A DNA stretch of 21,622 nt, taken from positions 1 through 21,622 of the IMG/VR virus record IMGVR_UViG_3300033153_000857, one strand, 5' to 3'. This DNA comes from a virus. The translations under genes and the position numbers were made by a program. The notes beneath the pieces are model-generated. The model did no database searches, was not told where the DNA came from, and saw nothing but the letters and a program-made list of their open reading frames with translations. Below are positions 1-16,505 of the stretch, in pieces. Each line of letters starts with the position of its first letter. The stretch's first letter is position 1.

Positions 1-1
1 A

Positions 2-520
2 TCAGAAACATATTATGAATCTACAAACGGACTAAAGGTTGAAAGAGGTTATGAATCACCTTTGTTTGTAAACAACCAAAAGAAAGATGAGTGTATACTA
101 GAAGATTGTTATATTCTAGTTAGTGATGCACCTATTGAAAACCTACTTCACATAGAGAATGTTTTGAAACCTATAATCTCAGAAAACAAAAGATTACTAA
201 TTATTGCACCCACCTCAGCTAATGTAACAAATACTCTAGCTGCGAATGTAATGAAGAACGGATTAAAGCTTTGTACTATTGGACCCCCATCATTTGGTTA
301 TAAACAACACGAACTAATGCAGGACATAGCACTAAGTGTAGGTGCTACTTACTATAGTGAAAAGACAGGAGATGATTTAAGTTTGATGACGTTAGAGGAT
401 TTGGGTCACTGTGCTAAGGTGATAGTTGGTCGTGACTCAACCGTCATCATTAAAGATGATGTTATTGGAGATGGCGAAATCTATAAAAGAATTAAAGAAT
501 TAAAAGAAGCAGTGGTGTAG
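2..520 (+). CDS. groEL: GroEL-like chaperonin, apical-domain part (5' partial, ends at a frame break)
   Basis: The reading frame enters from the left edge, so the start is missing. It aligns by eye with the apical domain of GroEL (about residues 185-350 of the E. coli protein). Visible landmarks are GLKVERGYESPLFV (GroEL GMQFDRGYLSPYFI), LLIIAP, a GPPSFG stretch matching the APGFG region, MQDIA, TLEDLG and GRDSTVII. It ends at TAG 518-520 after RIKELKEAVV. The chaperonin homology then resumes at once in the -1 frame (next feature), so this is not a natural C-terminus. Full-length GroEL forms a double-ring ATP-driven folding cage with GroES, which is encoded just downstream. Either the gene is broken, or the two parts are joined by frameshifting, or the assembly has an error. 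Identification as GroEL is strong; its functional state is uncertain. Confidence 0.88.
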   Translation, partial: SETYYESTNGLKVERGYESPLFVNNQKKDECILEDCYILVSDAPIENLLHIENVLKPIISENKRLLIIAPTSANVTNTLAANVMKNGLKLCTIGPPSFGYKQHELMQDIALSVGATYYSEKTGDDLSLMTLEDLGHCAKVIVGRDSTVIIKDDVIGDGEIYKRIKELKEAVV

Positions 521-975
521 GTGTTATTTATGTTGGAGGTCAAACTGACCTAGAACAAAAAGAACTTTATGATAGGATTGATGATGCAGTATGTGCAGTA
601 CGTTCAGCTTTAGAAGAAGGTATACTTCCGGGTGGAGGTTCAGCTTTAATGCAAGAGTCTTATAATATAGGTGATGATACTGTAGCTAAACAAATTTTAG
701 CGAGAGCACTTCGTGCTCCTTTAAAACAAATATGGGAGAACGCAGGAATAAAATATGAAGGTCAATATGAGGCTTCTGTTGAAAGCAACAAAATCGGATA
801 TAATAATGGGTTCGATGTAAAAGAAGGCAAGTGGGGAGATATGTATAAGTTGGGTGTTATTGACCCGTTAAAAGTAACTAAGTCGGCATTGCAGAACGCA
901 GTGTCTGTAGCAGTAACTATTCTTTCTACCAATGCTATTATAACAATGGCTAGGACTTACGAGGATAAAAATTAA
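496..975 (+). CDS. groEL: GroEL-like chaperonin, intermediate/equatorial C-terminal part in the -1 frame
   Basis: This frame is open from 496 and carries recognisable GroEL sequence from about 508: GVGVIYVGG (GroEL GGVAVIKVGA), DRIDDAVCAVRSALEEG containing the Asp equivalent to catalytic D398, PGGGSAL (the nucleotide-contacting GGG), APLKQI, IGYNNGFDV and GVIDPLKVTKSAL, with the Asp equivalent to ATP-binding D495. It has no ATG before 649, and 649 lies inside the conserved domain, so it is the continuation of the preceding frame rather than an independent gene. The Gly-Gly-Met tail of bacterial GroEL is absent and the segment after the GGG is short. ATP-site residues are kept, which argues against long-standing decay. 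Confidence 0.85.
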   Translation, partial: RIKRSSGVGVIYVGGQTDLEQKELYDRIDDAVCAVRSALEEGILPGGGSALMQESYNIGDDTVAKQILARALRAPLKQIWENAGIKYEGQYEASVESNKIGYNNGFDVKEGKWGDMYKLGVIDPLKVTKSALQNAVSVAVTILSTNAIITMARTYEDKN

Positions 976-991
976 TTTAAAACCTAATACA

Positions 992-1153
992 ATGCCAATT
1001 TATAATCAAATATTTGAACACTATAGACAAGAACAAGAAAGAATTGAGAAAGCAATTAGATTGTTAAAAAAGAAAGGATTCTATATAAAGGACTTAAAAG
1101 AAGATAAGTACCTAACTAAAAAACAGAAATCATATAATGAAGCCAATAGGTAA
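992..1153 (+). CDS. Small charged helical protein, unknown (53 aa)
   Basis: The ATG at 992 opens a 53-residue frame (MPIYNQIFEH...) ending at TAA 1151-1153, with its last 17 bases overlapping the start of groES. The product is rich in Lys, Glu and Gln with heptad-like spacing, so it is probably mostly helical. I recognise no family. It fills the 161-base space between the two chaperonin genes. Its overlap with groES suggests coupled translation. A role with the chaperonins is possible only by position. Confidence 0.5.
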   Translation: MPIYNQIFEHYRQEQERIEKAIRLLKKKGFYIKDLKEDKYLTKKQKSYNEANR

Positions 1154-1394
1154 GTACATCTTAATAAAAGAGATTAAAGAAGAAGTAAAGACTGAATCAG
1201 GTCTATTACTTTCTGCGGAAGACACGAGTAACATTAGATATAAGAAGGGGGAAGTAATAGCACCCGGAACAGATGTAAGTGTTATTGATTCAGGTAAAAT
1301 TATATTTTACGATTCAAGAGCCGGTTATACTTTAATAATTGAAGAAGAAACTTATACAGTTATTTCTGAGAGAGATGTCGTTGTTGTCTTATAG
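1137..1394 (+). CDS. groES: GroES-like co-chaperonin (Cpn10), 85 aa
   Basis: This is the lid of the GroEL folding cage: a 10-kDa beta-barrel that binds GroEL through a mobile loop. The start MKPIGKYILIKEI matches the MNIRPLHDRVIVKR start of GroES. The mobile-loop region (about residues 16-35) includes SGLLLSA, in the place of the GGIVLTG tripeptide that contacts GroEL. After this come GEVIAPG (GEVLAVG), GKIIFYD and the closing strand ISERDVVVVL (MSESDILAIV). At 85 residues it is about ten shorter than the bacterial family, with a reduced roof loop, a trend also known in phage co-chaperonins. It follows the groEL pieces and overlaps the 53-residue gene. Its 3' end overlaps the convergent minus-strand gene by 35 bases. 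Confidence 0.9.
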   Translation: MKPIGKYILIKEIKEEVKTESGLLLSAEDTSNIRYKKGEVIAPGTDVSVIDSGKIIFYDSRAGYTLIIEEETYTVISERDVVVVL

Positions 1395-6006: not shown

Positions 6007-6756
6007 ATGGCTAGAATATCTACATATCCGATAGATACAGAATTAGTTGGAGCAGATAAGTGGATAGGAACAGATGCCACAAATAAGAACGCTACAAAGA
6101 ACTTTACTTTATCGGCAGTTGCAGATTGGATTAACACCACTGCATCAGTTGATTCTCAAACTTTAAGGTATAGATTTCAAGCGGTAGCTTATAATCAAGG
6201 AGCAAAAAGCAGAAAACTAGGCAGTATATCATTTGACCCGAATGAGGGAGAGACTGTTCCGTTTGATTCAATATCAGGTTTTGTCCTTAGTTCATATTCA
6301 TTAAAGTATGCTAGTCAGGCACCACCTGCAGATATTTCTGATTTTTATACAGGTGCACTTGTAAACTCCATAGTACTTATTTCAAATACAGATGACATAA
6401 GTAAATATGGAATATACACTTGGGACAGTGCGGTTGCAAGACAGAACAATCCGGGATTTTGGGATATAGGTTTATCACCTTTGGCTACAAACGGAAGCCT
6501 TCAAAACACTAAAGATTATTTCATATCTTTGTTGACATATAATCCTAGTGCAAGTGGTGGGGATAAAACTTTTGTATTTACACAAGGAACACCTTCATTA
6601 AATTGGGTTATAAACCATCCACTAGAAAAATTTCCATCAGTATCTGTAGTTGATTCAGGTGGTCAAGAGGTGATTTGTACAGTAGATTATATAGATAATA
6701 AAACAATAAACTTAACATTTAATGCGGCTTTCTCAGGACAGGCTTATTTAAATTAA
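6007..6756 (+). CDS. Tail fibre/appendage protein (249 aa)
   Basis: The N-terminus MARISTYPIDTELVGADKWI, then GTD..N..TKNF, matches the N-terminus of the fibre at 10909, so it is likely a shared virion-attachment segment. The C-terminal domain (about residues 189-249) reads FTQGTPSLNWVINHPLEKFP, then SVSVVDSGG, VDYIDNKTINLTF and a final AFSGQAYLN. This pattern is common at the ends of phage tail and adsorption proteins. The middle is beta-rich with no enzymatic motif. It is the first gene after the 5976 promoter and 21 bases from the next fibre gene. The fibre role is well supported; the ligand is unknown. Confidence 0.8.
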   Translation: MARISTYPIDTELVGADKWIGTDATNKNATKNFTLSAVADWINTTASVDSQTLRYRFQAVAYNQGAKSRKLGSISFDPNEGETVPFDSISGFVLSSYSLKYASQAPPADISDFYTGALVNSIVLISNTDDISKYGIYTWDSAVARQNNPGFWDIGLSPLATNGSLQNTKDYFISLLTYNPSASGGDKTFVFTQGTPSLNWVINHPLEKFPSVSVVDSGGQEVICTVDYIDNKTINLTFNAAFSGQAYLN

Positions 6757-6777: not shown

Positions 6778-8892
6778 ATGGCAATTAGATTTTTAGATGC
6801 GATAGATTTGACAGGATTAGAAATGACTAATGTCCTTGCTCAAAATCTTACAAGTAACCCAACAACTGCTTTAGGAGAAGGTCAGTTTTTTTATGACAGT
6901 ACACTGCAAGTTTTTAAATATTACGCAGGTACTACTAAAGGATGGATTGCTTTAGATGGTCAAGGTGGTGTAACAAGTATATCTGCAGGTAAAGGTCTTA
7001 GTGTATCTTCCACAACAGGTGCAATAACAATTAGTCCTGACTATGCTACGGCACAAAATATTATTTTATCAGCAACCAATTTAGTAGGTACAGTTGTTCC
7101 TTTAGAGGCACACATTATTTATTCAGATTCAAAGAATGTTGTTAATTATGCTGCAGTACAAGACTTACCTTTCACTGCTAACACAGGTACAGTAACAGGA
7201 GTATCAGGAACTTTACCAATAACTTCAAGTGGAGGTACTTCACCGGCTATTGGTATTAATACCTTTACAGGTGCAAACGGTACGGCTGCAGGAACTAAAG
7301 GTGCAGTACCTGCACCGGCAGCAGCAGACAATGTTAAGTATTTAAAAGGTGACGGAACTTGGGCAACTATTCCTGCAGGATTCGCAGGGTTTGATATTAG
7401 TGATGGTAAAAACTCATTTGCAGTTGCTTCAGGTAATGGTGTAACATTCGCTTCTGCAGGAGGAACTATTGTGTGGGATGCTTCTACTGCATTAACAGTA
7501 GATGCAGATTTAGCTACAACAAGTGTAACTGCAGGTTCTTATACTTCAGCAGACATTACAGTTGATAAGTATGGTAGAGTAACTGCAGCAGCTTCAGGTG
7601 GAGCAGGAACAATGTCTTCATTTGATTTAACTTCAGATAAGGGTAATGCAGAAACAGTTACTGATGGTCAAACAGTTACAATTAGTGGTGGTACTGCTCT
7701 TACAGGAACAGTAAGTGCTAACGATACAGTAACCCTAGACCACGATTCTTTTGGAACTGCAGGTACATATACATACCCGTCACAAATTGTTACAAACGCA
7801 ACGGGTCACATTACATCTGTTACAAACGGAAGTGCTCCGGGAACAATGGATTCTTTTAAAGCTTCAGGTGATTCGGGTACTCCTCAATCAATTGGAGATG
7901 GCGACACATTAAGTATTTTAGGAAGCACAGGTATTGATACGGTGGCAAGTGCTACAGGTAAAGTAACAATAAATCTAGACCTATGTGAACTAGATGCACC
8001 GAAAAGTGATATAGACCCTACTAAAGATACTTTAGCAGGATGCTTTGGTAGTGCAAATGGTCAAGTTGTAATTGGTGATATTAAGCTAAATGATTTTGCT
8101 AATCCGAGTGGAAACTTGGATATGAATAGTAAGAAGATTGTTGATATGGCTGACCCAACGTCAGCACAAGATGCATCTACAAAAAATTATGTAGACACTA
8201 CATTTGCAGGTTCAGGTTCATTAATCTATCAAGGTGGATATGATGCAACAACTGCAGCACCAACAGGTTCCGCAACTAAGAAAGGATTTACTTATGCAGT
8301 AACCAAAGGTGGTACAGGAAATCCTCCAGGATTTTGGAGTCCTGCTTTAGAGATTGGTGATTTAATTATTGCTAATGTAGACAATCCTACAAGTGCAGCA
8401 GATTGGACAGAGATTAACAAAAACATTGATGTTGCAACTGCAACTGTTCAAGGTATTGCTAACTTCCCAACTGCAGGTGGACTAAGCGTTACTGCAGGAG
8501 CAGTAAGCATACCGGCTTCAGGAGTAAAAGCAGCAACATACGGAGCATCAGATACAGTATCACAAATAACTGTAGACGATAAAGGTCTTGTTACAGGAGC
8601 ATCAGATGTTACTATTGCAATTGATGCATCACAAGTAAATAGTTTCTGTACAGAAGTTGTTTCTTGTCAAACTGCAAGAGAAAAGACAGGTACAATCGGA
8701 AATGCTACAAGTTGGCAAATTACTCACAACTTTGGAACAAGAAATGTTATGGTTCAAGTTTATAGTAACACATCTCCGTATGACAATGTGGAAGTGAAAA
8801 TTGCTAGAAGCACTGTAAACATTGTAGATATTTCAGTAGCTAAGAATCCGGGAGTATCAGCATTAAATTATATGATTCAAAAAATAGGCTAA
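6778..8892 (+). CDS. Large repetitive tail fibre (704 aa)
   Basis: The N-terminal part has EGQFFYDSTLQVFKYYAGTT and GWIALDG, a segment frequent in fibres. The body is built of Thr/Ser/Gly/Ala-rich beta repeats with the recurring pattern G-x-Y-x-x-x-x-I-T-V-D-x-x-G-x-V-T (about 7520-7608, 7750-7840, 8521-8610). Near 8110-8208 is NPSGNLDMNSKKIVDMADPT, then SAQDASTKNYVD, a classic phage fibre repeat. The C-terminal domain (about residues 634-704) contains WQITHNFGTRNVMVQVY, related to the C-terminal domain of the preceding protein. An A-rich tract precedes the ATG. It should form a trimeric receptor-binding fibre. Confidence 0.88.
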   Translation: MAIRFLDAIDLTGLEMTNVLAQNLTSNPTTALGEGQFFYDSTLQVFKYYAGTTKGWIALDGQGGVTSISAGKGLSVSSTTGAITISPDYATAQNIILSATNLVGTVVPLEAHIIYSDSKNVVNYAAVQDLPFTANTGTVTGVSGTLPITSSGGTSPAIGINTFTGANGTAAGTKGAVPAPAAADNVKYLKGDGTWATIPAGFAGFDISDGKNSFAVASGNGVTFASAGGTIVWDASTALTVDADLATTSVTAGSYTSADITVDKYGRVTAAASGGAGTMSSFDLTSDKGNAETVTDGQTVTISGGTALTGTVSANDTVTLDHDSFGTAGTYTYPSQIVTNATGHITSVTNGSAPGTMDSFKASGDSGTPQSIGDGDTLSILGSTGIDTVASATGKVTINLDLCELDAPKSDIDPTKDTLAGCFGSANGQVVIGDIKLNDFANPSGNLDMNSKKIVDMADPTSAQDASTKNYVDTTFAGSGSLIYQGGYDATTAAPTGSATKKGFTYAVTKGGTGNPPGFWSPALEIGDLIIANVDNPTSAADWTEINKNIDVATATVQGIANFPTAGGLSVTAGAVSIPASGVKAATYGASDTVSQITVDDKGLVTGASDVTIAIDASQVNSFCTEVVSCQTAREKTGTIGNATSWQITHNFGTRNVMVQVYSNTSPYDNVEVKIARSTVNIVDISVAKNPGVSALNYMIQKIG

Positions 8893-8895
8893 TAA

Positions 8896-10587
8896 ATGGC
8901 ATCATACATTGAGTTTAAGGAACCAATCTCAGTTTCTACCGACATAAAAGTTGATGGGGTGAGTTTGGACACAGGTGCCTTCATTCCAAAACAATCTTTA
9001 ACAGTTAGCGGACAAACCCTTACTATTAGTGATGGTAACTCCGTTACTATGCCAACTAATACAGGACCTCAGGGTCCCAAAGGTGACAAGGGTGATACCG
9101 GAGCAACAGGACCTCAGGGTCCTATTGGTTTAACGGGAGCAACCGGTCCACAAGGTCCACAAGGAAAAACAGGTGATAAAGGTGATAAGGGTGACACCGG
9201 TGCTACAGGTCCACAAGGACCAATAGGTTTAACCGGTCCTGAAGGTCCCGAAGGTCCCGAAGGTCCACAAGGACCTCAGGGAGGTAAGGGAGATAAGGGA
9301 GATACCGGTGCTACAGGACCAACAGGTCCTGAAGGACCTCAAGGAAAACAAGGTGACCAAGGAGTAAAAGGAGATACAGGTGCACAAGGTCCTATTGGAC
9401 TAACAGGTCCTCAAGGACCTCAAGGTCCAAAGGGAGACCAAGGTGATGAAGGTCCTCAAGGAAAAACAGGAAATACAGGTGCTACAGGACCAACGGGTCC
9501 TGAAGGACCACAAGGACCGGAAGGTCCTGAAGGACCAAAGGGGGACACAGGTTCTCAAGGTCCAAAGGGTGATACAGGTTCTCAAGGTCCTCAAGGAGTT
9601 AAGGGCGACACAGGAGCAACAGGTCCTGAGGGACCGGAAGGTCCTCAGGGTAAGACCGGTGACACAGGTGCTACGGGACCTATTGGACCACAAGGTCCGG
9701 CAGGTGCAAAAGGCGATAAAGGAGACACGGGTTCTACAGGACCTCAAGGTCCGAAAGGAGATACAGGTGCAGTTGGACCGGAAGGACCCAAAGGAGATAC
9801 AGGAAGTACGGGACCACAGGGACCCGAGGGACCTGAGGGACCACAGGGTAAAACAGGAGACACAGGAGCCACCGGACCACAGGGACCTAAAGGAGATATT
9901 GGAGCAACAGGACCGGAAGGTCCTAAAGGAGATAAGGGAGATACCGGTTCGCAAGGACCTAAGGGAGACACCGGAAGTACGGGTCCACAAGGTCCACAAG
10001 GACCGGAAGGACCGGAAGGACCGGAAGGACCACAAGGGAAAACCGGAGATACCGGTGGAGTTGGACCGCAAGGACCTAAGGGAGACACGGGTGCAACCGG
10101 AGGAGTAGGTCCTGAAGGACCGCAAGGACCTAAGGGAGATACAGGTGCAACCGGAGGAGTAGGTCCACAGGGACCTAAAGGAGATACAGGGTCAACAGGA
10201 GGTGTTGGACCCCAAGGACCTAAAGGTGACCAAGGAGACGAGGGACCTAAAGGTGATACAGGCTCACAAGGACCCCAAGGAGTAAAAGGGGATACAGGAA
10301 GTACGGGACCAACAGGTCCTACAGGTCCACAGGGACCTGAAGGAAAAAAAGGGGATACAGGTTCGACAGGACCTGAAGGTCCACAGGGGAAAACCGGTAA
10401 TACGGGTGCAACGGGACCACAAGGACCACAAGGTCCTACGGGTCCAACAGGACCACAGTTCCCTGTAGACTTTGATGGTCAAGGAGATACCACAATAGAC
10501 AGAATAGATGTTGACACTAAAAGTGGTTGTGCTACTGTTACCCTAGCAGACGGGAATAGATTTAATCTTGCATTGTGTGCGAAGTAA
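8896..10587 (+). CDS. Collagen-like fibre protein (563 aa)
   Basis: An N-terminal 56-residue beta-type domain ([20 protein letters not shown]...) is followed by 155 uninterrupted Gly-X-Y triplets (residues 57-521) and a 42-residue C-terminal cap ([20 protein letters not shown], then [19 protein letters not shown]) with two Cys. Triplets such as GPQ, GPE, PKGD, GDT, GAT and GKT dominate. The Lys-Gly-Asp/Glu pairs can stabilise a triple helix without hydroxyproline, as in bacterial collagens. The protein is expected to be a rod-like trimeric fibre or a surface-adhesion element, nucleated by one of the end domains. The start is three bases after the previous stop. The gene is visibly richer in G and C than its neighbours because of Gly and Pro codons. 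Confidence 0.92.
9064..10458 (+). repeat. Gly-X-Y collagen repeat, 155 triplets
   Basis: The phase is kept over 1395 bases (exactly 155 units of nine bases) from the first GPQ to the last GPQ. Glycine codons vary (GGA, GGT, GGG, some GGC) and proline codons vary (CCT, CCA, CCC, CCG), so the DNA repeat is less exact than the protein repeat. Larger blocks such as PKGDTG recur in irregular order. The variation would lower slippage and recombination. Confidence 0.9.
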
Positions 10588-10607
10588 TAATCTAAATGAA
10601 AATTTAC

Positions 10608-10615
10608 TATCTTTG
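10608..10615 (+). promoter_or_regulatory. Bacteroidetes-type -7 element TATCTTTG
   Basis: TATCTTTGTAACT lies in the 57-base spacer after the collagen-like gene, 37 bases before ATG 10645. The octamer is identical to the plus-strand box at 1806. An AT-rich leader (AATAAATAATTAAATATAAA) follows. It probably starts the transcript for 10645 onward. Confidence 0.68.
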
Positions 10616-10644
10616 TAACTAATAAATAATTAAATATAAATCAA

Positions 10645-10905
10645 ATGGCAAAAAGTAAAAAATTAACAGAAAAAGAACTCACTCAAGTTCAATCAATGCT
10701 TAACGCATTTAACCAATTGAAAATGCAACTTGGGGATGTGGTTTTGCAACAAAGACAAATTGTTGATAATATCGACAAAGTAAAAGAAGACTATAAAGTA
10801 GTCGAAAAGGAATTAACTACAAAGTACGGTGAGGATGCCGTAATCAATCCAAAGACAGGAGAGATTACTAAAAATCCTAAAGAGACTTTAGAAAAAGTAA
10901 AATAA
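10645..10905 (+). CDS. Small coiled-coil protein, prefoldin-like shape (86 aa)
   Basis: After the Lys-rich start (MAKSKKLTEKELTQVQSMLN) there are two helices with heptad spacing, about residues 8-35 and 42-62, with QLKMQLGDVVLQQRQIVDNI between them. The C-terminal tail is KYGEDAVINPKTGEITKNP. The paired-helix hairpin resembles the general shape of prefoldin or fibre-chaperone subunits, and small proteins like this recur in aquatic phages without an assigned function. It sits directly upstream of the 673-residue fibre, so an assembly-chaperone role is a possible guess. It has its own promoter element. Confidence 0.72.
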   Translation: MAKSKKLTEKELTQVQSMLNAFNQLKMQLGDVVLQQRQIVDNIDKVKEDYKVVEKELTTKYGEDAVINPKTGEITKNPKETLEKVK

Positions 10906-10908
10906 AAA

Positions 10909-12930
10909 ATGGCAAGAATAGCAACATACCCTGTAGATGCAATACCAACTATTAACGACAAAGTAATAGGTACTGATGTCGATAATGAGTTGATTACAAA
11001 AAATTATAGGATTGGAGATATTCTTGCGTTAGTACCGGGTGGAGGTCTTTCCGTTCAGTCACTAAACACATTAACAGGAGAACTTACTTTACTAGGTACA
11101 GGAGGCATTACTATTAGTGCTTCCGGTACCGACATAACTATTGATGGTTCAGCTATTGGTGGTGGTGGATTAAGTAAATTTGATGTAACAGGTAATTCAG
11201 GTACAACTCAAACTATTGATGAAAATCAAGACCAATTGACATTTAAGTCTAATGACTTAGTTATTCAAGGAAGCAATTCGGGAACATTTGATTTTAACTT
11301 AATTGACCAAGGTGTAACAGGAACTTATACCAATGCTGACATAACTGTTAATGCTCAAGGTATTATTACTGCAGCAGCCAATGGAACAGGTGGTGGTGGT
11401 ACACCGGGAGGTGCACCTCAAGATGTTCAGTATCACGGAACAGGTGGTGTGTTTGAAGGGAATCAATACAATACTTATGTATTGGGTACTGATTTTTCAG
11501 AACATACTCTAGGTGGAAAGGAGAAAGCCGGTCAGGTAACTCTCGATACTTATGGTCTAGGTGATGCTATTAATTATGGTAATGCAGCAGTAGAACATAG
11601 AGCAGGTAACTATGTACACTTAGCAGGTTGTACTACACAAGAAGCAAGTGATGATTATTATATTCATTTCCCACAAAAGCAAGGTGGTGCAAATACCATT
11701 TTAGAAAACGATGGTAACGGTCAATTAAATTGGATACCAACCCCATCAGGTGGTGGTGGTGCTGATGATAAATTTAAAATAGATGCGGCAGATACTCAAA
11801 ACGGATATTGGAATGATAAAGTAACTATAGGTTCAGGTCTATCAGGTTCAGTAAATACTGATGCACAAGGTGTTAAAACTTTAACTATAAGTGCTCAATC
11901 AGTTAATACAGTAAATAGCATTAAGGTTGGTAATACTACAGAATCAGGATTGTTTGAGTTTACAGGTTCAGGTGTTACTATGGATAACTCTAGTAGTCCA
12001 ACTGTAATTAATTTTGCAGGTGGAACAGGAAGTCCTGCAGGTCTTGATGGACAAGTTCAATTTAATGATAATGGTGCATTTGGTGCTTATGTAGGATTAA
12101 CTTTTGATTCAAGTTATGCTAAACTAACATTAGGTAAATCTGCTGCTCCAACAAGTCAAGAAGGATGTTTAAGGGTTGAAGGAAACGGTTCAACTTTAGG
12201 TGGTAAAATTGAACTAGAAACAGGTGCAGGAAAAGGTAGTCCTGAAACAATGACTTTATTGGCTCCTGCTCAGGGTGCAAAACAAGAAATAATTTTACCT
12301 GAAACAGTACCAACTCTACAATCTCAAGTATTAGCAGTTAAAAGTATTAATGGTTCAGAGGTTCAAACACAATGGGAAGTTCCATCAGGAGGTGGTGGAG
12401 TAACTCAAATTGTTCCGGGAACAAATGTAAGTATTAGTCCACCTTCAGGTATAGGTGCAGTTACAGTCAATAGTACACCTATGGCTATGACAAAAGTTAT
12501 TGAGGATGTAGAAAATGCTACTCAATCAATGCAACCAACTGTAGCAACAACAATACTTTTTGGTAAGGGACAAACTACTGCTGACGTACAAATCACAAGT
12601 ACAGGAGATATTATCTTTGTAACTCCCGGAAATTATTTTGTAAACTTTGGTATTAATATGGCTAACCAAGACATCACAACTCAATATGCAATGTTTACTG
12701 CAGTAGTAAATGGTAATCCATATTTACAAACTTGGGTTCATCAAATTAGTGATGCAATCGCAGGTGGTTGGGAAGTTGGTTTCCCAATAACTGTTACAAA
12801 TGATGGAGATAGATTAAATCTACTTGGAACAGTATCAGGTCTGCAATGTAGAATTCAAACTGTAGCAACTAATGTTGCAAGTATGCCTACTGCTCCGGGT
12901 TCGTGGGTTGCTATTCATAAATTAGTGTAA
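10909..12930 (+). CDS. Large tail fibre with jelly-roll-like C-terminus (673 aa)
   Basis: The N-terminus MARIATYPVDAIPTINDKVI, then GTDVDN..ITKNYRI, is paralogous to that of the protein at 6007. The body contains fibre beta repeats, including GVTGTYTNADITVNAQGIIT (about 11311-11395), which matches repeats of the 704-residue fibre, and Gly-rich linkers. The last approximately 145 residues include TTILFGKGQ, DIIFVTPGNYFVNFGINM and GWEVGFPITVTNDGDRLNLL. They look like a C1q/TNF-type jelly-roll tip, a guess from strand pattern only. It is probably a second receptor-binding or side fibre. It ends in a TAATG overlap with the next gene. Confidence 0.85.
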   Translation: MARIATYPVDAIPTINDKVIGTDVDNELITKNYRIGDILALVPGGGLSVQSLNTLTGELTLLGTGGITISASGTDITIDGSAIGGGGLSKFDVTGNSGTTQTIDENQDQLTFKSNDLVIQGSNSGTFDFNLIDQGVTGTYTNADITVNAQGIITAAANGTGGGGTPGGAPQDVQYHGTGGVFEGNQYNTYVLGTDFSEHTLGGKEKAGQVTLDTYGLGDAINYGNAAVEHRAGNYVHLAGCTTQEASDDYYIHFPQKQGGANTILENDGNGQLNWIPTPSGGGGADDKFKIDAADTQNGYWNDKVTIGSGLSGSVNTDAQGVKTLTISAQSVNTVNSIKVGNTTESGLFEFTGSGVTMDNSSSPTVINFAGGTGSPAGLDGQVQFNDNGAFGAYVGLTFDSSYAKLTLGKSAAPTSQEGCLRVEGNGSTLGGKIELETGAGKGSPETMTLLAPAQGAKQEIILPETVPTLQSQVLAVKSINGSEVQTQWEVPSGGGGVTQIVPGTNVSISPPSGIGAVTVNSTPMAMTKVIEDVENATQSMQPTVATTILFGKGQTTADVQITSTGDIIFVTPGNYFVNFGINMANQDITTQYAMFTAVVNGNPYLQTWVHQISDAIAGGWEVGFPITVTNDGDRLNLLGTVSGLQCRIQTVATNVASMPTAPGSWVAIHKLV

Positions 12931-13351: not shown

Positions 13352-13915
13352 ATGAAATCACCAACATCTTTTATCGTAAAGCCTTTAAAAGGTAAAAGGT
13401 ACGATAATACCAAAACTTACGGAGATATTGATTTTATATTAAGTACATCTCAAGAGGACCATAGGTTCTCTAATCGAAAAGCAACAGTTATAGAACTTCC
13501 CCTTAATTATAGTGGACCAATAAAAAAAGGTGACACCCTACTTGTCCATCATAATGTTTTTAAATATTATAATGATATGCAAGGAAAGATTCAAAGTGGG
13601 AAAAGTTATTTTAAAGACGATTTGTTTTTTATAGATGAAGAACAATATTATGCATATCATAATGGTATAGAATGGAATGCAATAAATAGATATTGTTTTA
13701 TAAAACCTGCACCGGTAGAAGATTCTTATATTTATAAACCATTAAGTGAAGAACCTTTGATTGGAATTATAAAATATCCTAATGAATATTTAAAATCAAA
13801 AGGGGTTACAAAAGGAGTTAAGGTGTGTTACAAACCTGAAAGTGAATATGAGTTTAATGTTGATGGAGAAAAACTTTATAGAATGTTTGACCATCAAATA
13901 ACAATGATACTTTGA
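13352..13915 (+). CDS. Conserved phage protein, candidate tandem GroES-type barrel (187 aa)
   Basis: The first half has FIVKPLKGKRY, KATVIELPLNYSGPIKKGDT, LLVHHNVFKYYNDMQG, FFIDEEQYYAY and YCFIKPAPVED. The second half has GIIKYPNEYLKSKGVTKG, KVCYKPESEYEFNVDGEKLY and RMFDHQITMIL. Both halves follow the strand order of GroES: a closing GxV/I strand, a (K)xGDxV turn, a strand with an acidic xVDGEKLYRM, and a terminal I-T-x-I-L strand like SESDILAIV. I recognise the protein type from phages with no experimentally known role. The GroES fold is inference from motif order. If true, it may act with the phage or host GroEL on capsid or fibre proteins. Confidence 0.75.
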   Translation: MKSPTSFIVKPLKGKRYDNTKTYGDIDFILSTSQEDHRFSNRKATVIELPLNYSGPIKKGDTLLVHHNVFKYYNDMQGKIQSGKSYFKDDLFFIDEEQYYAYHNGIEWNAINRYCFIKPAPVEDSYIYKPLSEEPLIGIIKYPNEYLKSKGVTKGVKVCYKPESEYEFNVDGEKLYRMFDHQITMIL

Positions 13916-14109: not shown

Positions 14110-14299
14110 ACACGACCCTGAAGATGATTTGTCTGCTGATAGATTAAAGAATGCGGCAGCTACAAAGAAATTAGCAATCTTTGATGCTTTTGAAATTTTA
14201 AATAGAATAGAAGCAGAGAAAGAAGCTATTGAATCTTTAGAAAGGGGAGCGAAAAAAACTGATACAAAACAAGGATTTGCAGAAAGAAGGTCTAAATAA
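14018..14299 (+). CDS. Putative terminase small subunit (93 aa)
   Basis: It starts at ATG 14018 (MKSKEIKLKIIEAGHRAVEQ); an in-frame ATG at 13976 would add 14 Lys/Glu-rich residues and is less attractive. The helical sequence EQLIKVAKEAIIKHDPEDDL, then SADRLKNAAATKKLAIFDAF, EILNRIEAEKEAIESLE and a basic tail GFAERRSK, together with the location immediately before and overlapping terL, fit a small terminase, which recognises viral DNA and loads the motor. There is no unmistakable helix-turn-helix, so the call rests mainly on synteny and on recall of similar short proteins before terL in Bacteroidetes phages. Confidence 0.65.
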   Translation: MKSKEIKLKIIEAGHRAVEQLIKVAKEAIIKHDPEDDLSADRLKNAAATKKLAIFDAFEILNRIEAEKEAIESLERGAKKTDTKQGFAERRSK

Positions 14300-16505
14300 A
14301 TTATATCAAGTACTTGAGGGTATTGTACCAAAAAATGTTTTAACGTCTAAGAACAAGGCTAAAACGTGGGAATACGGGTATGATTCAAAGTATGATATTG
14401 TTATCATATCTAAAAGCGGACAAATAGGAGATATAATTTCAATTCAAGGACTAAGTATTGCATTACCATTAGAGCCTAAAAAGTGTCTTCAAAGACACTC
14501 AAAAAAAGAAGAACAATATTGGGAAAGACAAGAACTGCCAAAAGCTTTATCTAAAATTCAATCTATATTTCAATGGAATGAAATGTCTTCAGAATTTAAA
14601 GACAGATGGGTTGATTATATAGAAGAAGAGTTTGATAGAAGAGAACAAGGTTTATGGTATAAATCAAACGGTATCTCTACCTACATAACAGGAGCACATT
14701 ATATGTATTTACAATGGACATCTATTGATGTCGGTTATCCTGATTTTAGAGAAGCTAATAGATTATTGTTTATTTATTGGGAAGCTTGTAAGGCTGACAG
14801 AAGAAGCTTTGGAATGATTTATTTAAAAATAAGACGTTCAGGTTTTTCTTTTATGTCTTCTTCTGAGTGTGTAAACACAGGTACTCTAGCTAAAGATTCA
14901 AGAGTTGGCATACTGTCTAAGACGGGTTCAGATGCAAAAAAAATGTTTACAGATAAAGTTGTTCCAATCAATAGCAGATTGCCATTCTTCTTTAAGCCTA
15001 TTATGGATGGTATGGATAAACCTAAAACAGAATTAGCTTTTAGGATTCCGGCTGCAAAGATAACTAAAAAAAATATGTACGATACAACTAATGATGAGTT
15101 GTATGGATTAGACACCACAATAGATTGGAAGAACACAGATGACAACTCTTATGATGGAGAAAAACTTTTGTTATTGGTTCACGATGAAAGTGGTAAATGG
15201 ATAAAGCCTAATAATATTTTAAATAATTGGAGGGTAACCAAAACCTGTCTACGTCTTGGTAGTAAAATTATTGGAAAATGTATGATGGGTTCAACCTCAA
15301 ATGCTTTAGACAAAGGGGGTGACAACTTTAAAAGTCTATACAATAATTCTAATGTATTAAAACGAAACGCTAATGGTCAAACCAAAAGCGGTATGTATTC
15401 ACTTTTCATCCCAATGGAATGGAATATGGAAGGGTTTATAGATAAATATGGAATGCCTGTATTTGAAAATCCTAAACAAGGAGTAGAGGGAATTGATGGA
15501 GAAACCATATATCAAGGTGCAGTTAACTATTGGAATAACGAGGTTGAATCTTTAAAGAAAGACCCTGATGCATTAAATGAATTTTATAGACAATTTCCTA
15601 GAACTGAATCTCACGCATTTAGAGATGAGAGCAAACAATCAATATTTAATCTAACTAAAATATATCAACAGATAGATTATAATGATTCATTAATTATAGA
15701 CCATCATTTGACTAGAGGAGATTTGGTTTGGAAGAATGGTATAAAAGATTCTAAGGTTGAATTTACTCCAAATCAAAGAGGTAGATTTTATGTTTCTTGG
15801 ACTCCTTCAAAAAATTTACAAAACAGAGTAGAAAACATAAACGGTAAAAAATCACCGGGTAATAAACACATAGGTGCATTTGGGTGTGATAGTTATGATA
15901 TATCAGGGACTGTAGGTGGTGGTGGTTCTAATGGAGCATTACACGGATTAACTATGTTTAATATGGATGACGCTCCAAGTAATGAATTTTTTTTAGAATA
16001 TATTGCTAGACCACAAACTGCAGAGATATTTTTTGAAGATGTATTAAAAGCTTGTGTGTTTTATGGTATGCCAATATTAATAGAAAACAATAAACCTAGA
16101 TTGTTATATCATTTTAAAAATAGAGGATATAGAAATTTTTGTTTAAATAGACCTGATAAACACTATAACAAATTATCAAAAACAGAAAGAGAATTGGGTG
16201 GTATTCCTAACTCAAGTGAAGCGGTAAAACAAGCACACGCTTCTGCAATTGAATCTTATATAGATGCAAATATAGGAATGAAACAAAATAATGAAATGGG
16301 TGATTGCATTTTCACAAGAACTTTAGAGGATTGGGCAAAATTTGACATTAGCAATAGAACAAAGTATGATGCTAGTATTTCCTCGGGTTTAGCGATTATG
16401 GCTTGTCAGAAACACCTATATATACCAAGGCAAAAAGTTTCAAAAATAAAGGTTAACTTTGCAAGGTATAGTAATAAAGGTACAATAAGCGAAATTATTA
16501 GATGA
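14277..16505 (+). CDS. terL: Terminase large subunit (packaging ATPase-nuclease)
   Basis: This is the motor that cuts concatemers and pumps DNA through the portal. In the ATPase domain the P-loop region is LKIRRSGFSFMSS (Lys184, Arg187, Gly189, Ser191). It lacks the usual GKS/T but fits the displaced-Lys form of lambda gpA (KSARVGYSK). Walker B is LLLLVHDE (Asp303, Glu304). The nuclease domain has FGCDSYD (Asp538, Asp541), PILIENN (Glu603) and TKYDAS (Asp698), a complete acidic RNase H-type set. Length is 742 residues, on the long side for the family. No ATG or GTG is available near the start. TTG 14277 is used here; CTG 14259, preceded by AAGGGGAG at 14242-14249, gives a better-spaced alternative adding IQNKD. 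It overlaps the small terminase and, by ATGA, the portal. Confidence 0.93.
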   Translation: MQKEGLNKLYQVLEGIVPKNVLTSKNKAKTWEYGYDSKYDIVIISKSGQIGDIISIQGLSIALPLEPKKCLQRHSKKEEQYWERQELPKALSKIQSIFQWNEMSSEFKDRWVDYIEEEFDRREQGLWYKSNGISTYITGAHYMYLQWTSIDVGYPDFREANRLLFIYWEACKADRRSFGMIYLKIRRSGFSFMSSSECVNTGTLAKDSRVGILSKTGSDAKKMFTDKVVPINSRLPFFFKPIMDGMDKPKTELAFRIPAAKITKKNMYDTTNDELYGLDTTIDWKNTDDNSYDGEKLLLLVHDESGKWIKPNNILNNWRVTKTCLRLGSKIIGKCMMGSTSNALDKGGDNFKSLYNNSNVLKRNANGQTKSGMYSLFIPMEWNMEGFIDKYGMPVFENPKQGVEGIDGETIYQGAVNYWNNEVESLKKDPDALNEFYRQFPRTESHAFRDESKQSIFNLTKIYQQIDYNDSLIIDHHLTRGDLVWKNGIKDSKVEFTPNQRGRFYVSWTPSKNLQNRVENINGKKSPGNKHIGAFGCDSYDISGTVGGGGSNGALHGLTMFNMDDAPSNEFFLEYIARPQTAEIFFEDVLKACVFYGMPILIENNKPRLLYHFKNRGYRNFCLNRPDKHYNKLSKTERELGGIPNSSEAVKQAHASAIESYIDANIGMKQNNEMGDCIFTRTLEDWAKFDISNRTKYDASISSGLAIMACQKHLYIPRQKVSKIKVNFARYSNKGTISEIIR
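14482..14498. repeat. 17-base exact repeat, copy 2 (hairpin AGTGTCTTCAAAGACACT)
   Basis: Identical over 17 bases to 2621-2637. With one more base here the arms AGTGTCTT and AAGACACT form an 8-bp match around CA. It lies in the 5' part of terL, read as KCLQRHS, not the frame used in copy 1. Confidence 0.7.

Follow-up and report, generated by a model that had tools for sequence, protein, structure and literature searches.

Genomic context of the collagen-like gene

The window, meaning the whole stretch of DNA analysed here, is a virus record of its own with 21,622 bases (IMG/VR IMGVR_UViG_3300033153_000857). At positions 8896-10587 on the plus strand it carries a complete open reading frame (ORF) of 563 amino acids with an ATG start, in which residues 57-521 (nt 9064-10458) form 155 consecutive Gly-X-Y triplets with zero interruptions. 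A 56-aa N-terminal part and a 42-aa C-terminal tip surround this rod. The features of the gene and its surroundings are as follows, with compared loci given by L numbers:

6007-6756, plus strand: 249-aa fibre, first gene of a three-gene cassette; its N-terminus appears by eye to resemble that of the 673-aa fibre
6778-8892, plus strand: 704-aa fibre, second cassette gene; in PHROG, residues 575-695 match phrog_2647 (head decoration) and residues 4-152 match phrog_8309
8896-8988, plus strand: putative N-terminal anchor, residues 1-31; found conserved where fibre proteins of this slot begin, even in the rodless one of L087
8992-9063, plus strand: rod cap, residues 33-56; a similar segment lies directly before Gly-X-Y rods in L091, L111 and the crAss-like loci
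9064-10458, plus strand: collagen-like rod, 155 unbroken Gly-X-Y triplets, residues 57-521; from triplet reading, Pfam, Gly selection and Lys-Gly-Asp (KGD) pairs
10459-10584, plus strand: C-terminal tip, 42 aa, with Cys 545 and Cys 561; from alignment with 16 other tips, AlphaFold2 and tip differences among near-identical relatives
10588-10644, plus strand: intergenic stretch ahead of the 86-aa ORF; tip exchange has its 3' junctions near here
10645-10905, plus strand: 86-aa ORF before the 673-aa fibre; relatives occur here in many loci; weak match to phrog_33329 (E 0.0089)
10909-12930, plus strand: downstream 673-aa fibre, so named from its layout and place
13352-13915, plus strand: GroES-like gene, used as slot anchor; phrog_13932 (E 2.1e-19)
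14277-16505, plus strand: terminase large subunit; phrog_6681 (E 1.4e-173)

The fibre cassette is placed between lysis and packaging genes. An amidase gene (5141) and a holin-like gene (5562) precede the fibre genes at 6007 and 6778 and the collagen gene at 8896, which is followed by the 86-aa ORF (10645), the 673-aa fibre (10909), two small ORFs, the GroES-like gene (13352) and the terminase (14277). An earlier sequence-only reading had set the collagen gene between two fibre genes. On the upstream side this is correct, as the 704-aa fibre ends 3 nt ahead of it (8892), but on the downstream side the 86-aa ORF comes before the 673-aa fibre. The 673-aa ORF has zero Pfam and zero PHROG matches.

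The terminase, the portal and a structural protein of the capsid region match phrog_6681, phrog_6547 and phrog_13704. The terminase finds 87 named phage records, comprising 68 Flavobacterium, 15 Cellulophaga, 2 Tenacibaculum and 1 Maribacter phages and one unclassified record (MW202828, 73% identity), and a portal search of named phages gives equal group counts. Judged from its sequence, the window belongs to an uncultured phage related to Flavobacterium and Cellulophaga phages. Because the named relatives are of the Flavobacterium/Cellulophaga type, a short tail and a Flavobacteriia host can be expected, and the virus probably infects aquatic Flavobacteria. A Bacteroidota promoter pattern has 0 matches in the window against a shuffle mean of 1.47 and so yields no host evidence. 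In Cellulophaga phage phi38:1, the slot contains fibre-like genes, with gp085 annotated as carrying an endosialidase chaperone and gp087 as a tail protein.

Anatomy of the rod

The unbroken run of 155 triplets noted by the sequence-only reading is borne out at residues 57-521. Pfam Collagen (PF01391) matches the ORF with 225.6 bits (E 3.7e-68) against a curated cut-off of 27.2, and it is the sole Pfam match at E<=0.001. Chance or a frame artefact was rejected, given the length of the run within a complete ORF, the presence of the same ORF in relatives, and the retention of the pattern in relatives with other rod lengths. The ORF has 44 PHROG matches, the best 5 of which are labelled tail or tail fibre and rest on Gly-X-Y similarity. 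Its 56-aa N-terminal part gives zero PHROG matches at E<=1 and zero matches in named phages, and the structure model of this part is unusable (mean pLDDT 50.3). Residues 1-31 probably serve in attachment. An anchor shared with the 704-aa fibre was considered and rejected (hhalign probability 14.4%, E 0.0019, 11 columns).

Fully extended, a rod of 465 residues at 0.29 nm per residue would span ~135 nm, in keeping with the original estimate of a hundred nanometres or more. Proline occupies 76 of the 155 X positions and none of the 155 Y positions, and the rod contains 34 Lys, 33 Asp and 21 Glu (54 acidic residues) and zero Arg. All four Gly codons are used, as had been remarked, but GGA and GGT account for 151 of 160, and 16 of the 17 Tandem Repeats Finder rows for the window lie inside the collagen gene (periods 9-99 nt). 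The repetition of the rod DNA is thus degenerate and not absent.

All 26 Y-position lysines are followed by Gly-Asp, against a mean of 5.5 and a maximum of 12 in 1000 triplet shuffles. In each of the other 31 rods or rod pieces, KGD exceeds its own shuffle mean, with a lower share in many (12 of 27 Y-position lysines in L197); two short pieces, L115 (4) and the second piece of L198 (3), only equal the shuffle maximum. These counts are not independent across repeats, owing to repeat duplication. Such charge pairs are reported in PMC7824840 to stabilise triple helices, raising peptide melting temperature by up to 17.5 C. The window gene offers one natural design for a long collagen rod without hydroxyproline, in which every Y-position lysine is paired with aspartate.

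Selection, occurrence and rod length

Comparison with L085 shows how the gene changes. Across 151 aligned Gly codons there are 48 synonymous changes and 0 replacements, with 18 replacements at X and 20 at Y positions. The tip, with 16 of its 42 codons replaced, is the fastest-changing part; the 56 codons of the N-terminal part show 2 replacements. Because alignment tends to hold Gly in register, the weight lies on the zero Gly replacements despite many silent changes, a pattern that points clearly to selection for a triple helix.

Rod length changes by whole triplets. Gaps within rods are multiples of three residues in 7 of 7 comparisons, and some tip gaps are not. The window and L082 are 99.97% identical over 9,679 nt, and 99.69% over 8,965 nt in a partly overlapping piece; their collagen genes differ by two synonymous changes and one four-triplet gap. 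Likewise, L083 and L084 are separated by a six-triplet difference and two synonymous changes. Most of the compared sequences are metagenome contigs, where repeats invite misassembly.

A relative of the GroES-like gene occurs in 213 loci, and the slot was judged complete in 77 by a simple rule. A locus qualified if a lysis-side gene was present upstream, if the sequence extended 2.5 kb or more ahead of the 86-aa ORF, or if it extended 9 kb or more ahead of the GroES-like gene. By hand count, the 77 loci represent 15 contigs with at least 72% GroES identity (window included) and 49 below 72%. The collagen gene is present in 14 of the 15 and in 1 of the 49 (L125); L103, with two short Gly-X-Y runs in another gene, was scored as lacking it. 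The exception among the 15 is L087, which keeps the anchor at the same place and continues into a rodless 264-aa protein. Eleven of the 14 contigs have a single unbroken run of 119-176 triplets, two are interrupted once (85+38 and 93+38 triplets), and in contig 33142_000289 (L198/L214) the rod is split by a frameshift. In L200, which is among the eleven, an interruption of the frame separates anchor from rod. Because several of these contigs are almost identical, they do not count as independent. The comparison of triplet number between strains that had been proposed thus gives rods of varied length in which the Gly-X-Y pattern is kept. Collagen matches in the seven records searched whole fall in one place each, and in the 61,102-base record at both ends.

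A dispensable or decaying accessory gene, unneeded in the particle, would fit both the single occurrence among the 49 more distant contigs and the disruption in two contigs. Presence in 14 of the 15 closer contigs and 0 Gly replacements against 48 synonymous changes instead indicate continued selection and make this explanation very improbable.

In L125 (3208-6735), six Gly-X-Y blocks occur, several of them parted by near-repeats of one short insert (GNGIAKT...YTDGTRF...). This blocks-plus-insert arrangement forms an alternative shaft in the same slot.

Tip family and predicted structure

An alignment of 17 tips points to a probable single family in which one Gly is invariant; the tip farthest from that of the window shares 18% identity with it. 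Two Cys are found in 16 of the 17, with spacing that differs between types, and the L125 tip has one. In a single-chain AlphaFold2 model, which leaves the expected trimer outside its reach, the tip appears as a three-stranded sheet with a mean pLDDT of 86.7 and a pTM of 0.60 (75.8-86.7 across five models). A fold search with this model returned zero PDB and zero viral matches at E<=0.001; among the 50 viral matches listed, 5 bear the name Collagen triple helix repeat, no more than a hint. Two tip types, A and B, were distinguished among close relatives. Tip A has zero matches in named phages, and a weak match of tip B in a microvirus capsid gene (E 0.1) was taken as chance.

Exchange of the tip and distal rod

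Tip types were scored in contigs with about 92% GroES identity or more and the tip in view. The window, L082, L204 and L210 carry type A; contigs 22074, 48027 and 48034 carry type B, an arrangement present in three metagenomes. L204, L210, L226 and 48034 start inside the rod, with the anchor outside view.

L210 was compared with L209 (contig 22074). Downstream of the gene, the two share 98.1% identity across 2,573 nt and 99.5% across 941 nt, and a proximal rod stretch matches at 297 of 300 positions. The distal rod and the tip diverge, with 28 of 59 positions identical in the last full tip window; identity returns within ~40 nt past the stop codon. L226 shares identical tip DNA with L209 (132/132) and a rod in which most long stretches are nearly identical and some have diverged. 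From about +69 onward, identity drops to 57-77% over ~500 nt and then recovers. Farther downstream, a second phage, L219, is almost identical to L226; between the tips of these two, 11 of 132 bases differ. An abrupt change of identity between the stop codon and about +70 nt is seen in L210/L209, L226/L209 and L209/window. Such a pattern is the one left by recombination that has a first junction within the rod and a second shortly after the stop codon. L210 and L226 are each a single contig, and chimeric assembly is possible for both.

The rod's degenerate Gly-X-Y DNA may act as a recombination platform on which distal rod and tip are traded as one cassette by these phages and, over longer time scales, by crAss-like phages, which would make the structural repeat an engine of host-range change as well. 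This reading is offered only tentatively. In the literature searched, no description was found of an exchangeable rod-tip cassette or of its sharing with crAss-like phages.

The variation of the tip also bears on what the rod does. The sequence-only reading allowed that the fibre may bind mucus, polysaccharide or other surfaces, or may space receptor tips from the particle. A rod that is itself the working part, binding mucus, exopolysaccharide or surfaces with the tip merely a trimerisation clamp, would suit the high charge of the rod (34 Lys, 54 Asp plus Glu) and the small size of the tip (42 aa), 16 of the 17 aligned tips having paired Cys. A mere clamp, though, need not vary between near-identical phages or change fastest, and the stabilising KGD pairs account for the placement of charge. 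This alternative is unlikely, and binding by the rod itself is unsupported. The spacer role fits best, given a 42-aa tip that varies among almost identical phages and evolves faster than the rest of the gene.

Link to crAss-like phages and particle location

A related cap, rod and tip occur on a different protein in L088-L090, L093, L095-L101 and L184. In L097, the related rod-tip ORF lies upstream of genes that score above the Pfam cut-offs for crAss tail ring 2, muzzle and, by a small margin (28.6 vs 27), ring 1. This Pfam check covers L097; L096 and L099 were grouped by the same ORF layout and the rest by fibre similarity. A break in the frame upstream shortens the rod ORF of L097 to 575 aa. 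The best five pairs between crAss-like and window-group sequences share 80-82% DNA identity over 306-322 nt around the cap and rod start. The crAss-like ORFs differ from the window gene in length (at most 1173 aa), in having two blocks of 36-47 triplets, and in their N-terminus. L096 (7820-11338) and L125 (3208-6735) have a similar segment between two collagen blocks (PSKYRFWG... and YSKYRLWG..., ~73% DNA identity). L184, although labelled a Pseudomonadales draft genome, shows the fibre layout of the crAss-like loci, and mis-binning of a phage contig is the probable reason for its label.

These loci also bear on whether the product would be a head or a tail fibre. A head fibre decorating the capsid, with a tip making weak contacts to surfaces or cells, would agree with the match of the adjacent 704-aa fibre to phrog_2647 (head decoration, E 3.2e-14) and with the position of the cassette near packaging and head genes. 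The tail labels on the collagen ORF's best PHROG matches, the fibre-like genes in the phi38:1 slot and the related ORF beside tail ring and muzzle genes in crAss-like L097 all favour a tail fibre instead, leaving the head location rather improbable.

Comparison with known collagen-like systems

Collagen-like phage fibres are an already known kind, and the window gene shares the features of the tail fibre class: a Gly-X-Y rod flanked by non-collagen ends, and a gene position among phage fibre genes. At 155 triplets its rod is long but no record; such a claim was rejected in view of 159-176 triplets in four close relatives and 163 in another phage record. The longest unbroken runs in five other phage records, which are no survey, are 65, 131, 51, 163 and 43 triplets. 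The run of 163 comes from L188 (LR756501), an uncultured phage of 735 kb; its open frame of 2168 aa contains 510 Gly-X-Y triplets divided among six blocks, of which that of 163 is the longest. Named phage records that match the collagen protein somewhere number 879, and none does so over 80% of its length in one place. Among the paper titles listed in the literature search, none names this gene or a collagen fibre of this phage group. A 1998 paper by Smith et al. is reportedly titled Bacteriophage collagen.

The EPcl proteins of E. coli O157:H7 prophages, proposed side-tail fibres, resemble the window gene in their Gly-X-Y rod with small end domains and in favouring acidic residues in X and basic ones in Y (PMC3368898). 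The same source describes E. coli prophage collagen-like proteins as trimers with a triple helix, a C-terminal trimerisation domain and dumbbell shapes, with the 111-residue rod of EPclA measured at ~30 nm. The longest rod there has 322 residues with one interruption, whereas that of the window gene has 465 uninterrupted residues. The EPcl end domains PF08400 and PF06820 were not among the Pfam matches of the window ORF at E<=0.001.

ORF67 of an E. coli O157:H7 Stx2 phage is a collagen-containing tail fibre candidate studied by gene deletion and electron microscopy; it is set apart, by its description, by multiple collagen-like domains plus a tail fibre C-terminus and repeat 2 domains (PMC5155283). 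FibU, the upper tail fibre of Staphylococcus phage 80alpha, is a virion fibre, but only its residues 178-208 are predicted to be collagen-like, and it is present in twelve copies as six dimers (PMC7048315). The streptococcal adhesins Scl1 and Scl2 also have a long Gly-X-Y rod, and their NCBIfam models match the window rod below cut-off (Scl1/SclA 290.7 of 400 bits, Scl2/SclB 252.3 of 325 bits). Unlike them, with the LPXTG cell-wall anchoring given in the NCBIfam entries, the window has a phage gene without a cell-wall anchor.

Proposed function and significance

The most likely explanation, held with moderate confidence, is a homotrimeric collagen-like virion fibre, most likely on a short tail, whose rod holds out an exchangeable host-binding tip. 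In this mechanism, the N-terminal anchor would fix the fibre to the particle and the cap would start the triple helix. The 155-triplet rod, with Lys-Gly-Asp pairs replacing hydroxyproline, would span up to ~135 nm, and the 42-aa tip would probably keep the three chains in register and contact the host surface. Recombination and the gain or loss of whole triplets would alter tip and rod length without changing the anchor or the Gly register. A rod that keeps its pattern, changes its length and exchanges its tip is what might be expected of a host-gripping fibre.

Several observations count against this explanation: the head-decoration PHROG on the 704-aa neighbour, the rodless L087, the disrupted L198/L214 and L200, the weaker KGD pairing in relatives, the single-Cys tip of L125 and the lack of a PDB or viral match to the tip model at E<=0.001. 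Overall, the initial interpretation is partly supported. Good support exists for its core, namely a collagen-like fibre that carries short terminal parts and is encoded next to other fibre genes.

These phages provide a natural series of collagen rods with varied length and tip on nearly one phage backbone, whose effects on adsorption are measurable. Should exchange prove as frequent as it looks from these contigs, two phage groups would have an adhesin platform in common in the form of collagen-like fibres. The known members of both infect Bacteroidota, in one case the flavophage relatives and in the other the Crassvirales, as reported in PMC10136315.

A separate observation concerns chaperonin genes. 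GroEL and GroES genes are annotated in the relatives MW202828 and Flavobacterium phage elemoF, and window ORFs at 649 and 1137 show similarity in the GroEL/GroES places of relatives (window 1-1394 and 13352-13915), so the phage may bring its own chaperonin. The gene in the GroEL place (window 1-975) is broken, with 64 nt missing at 511 compared with L082, whose ORF runs through; the first 511 nt are only 96.3% identical to L082 and the remainder more than 99.6%, possibly a contig-end or chimera effect.
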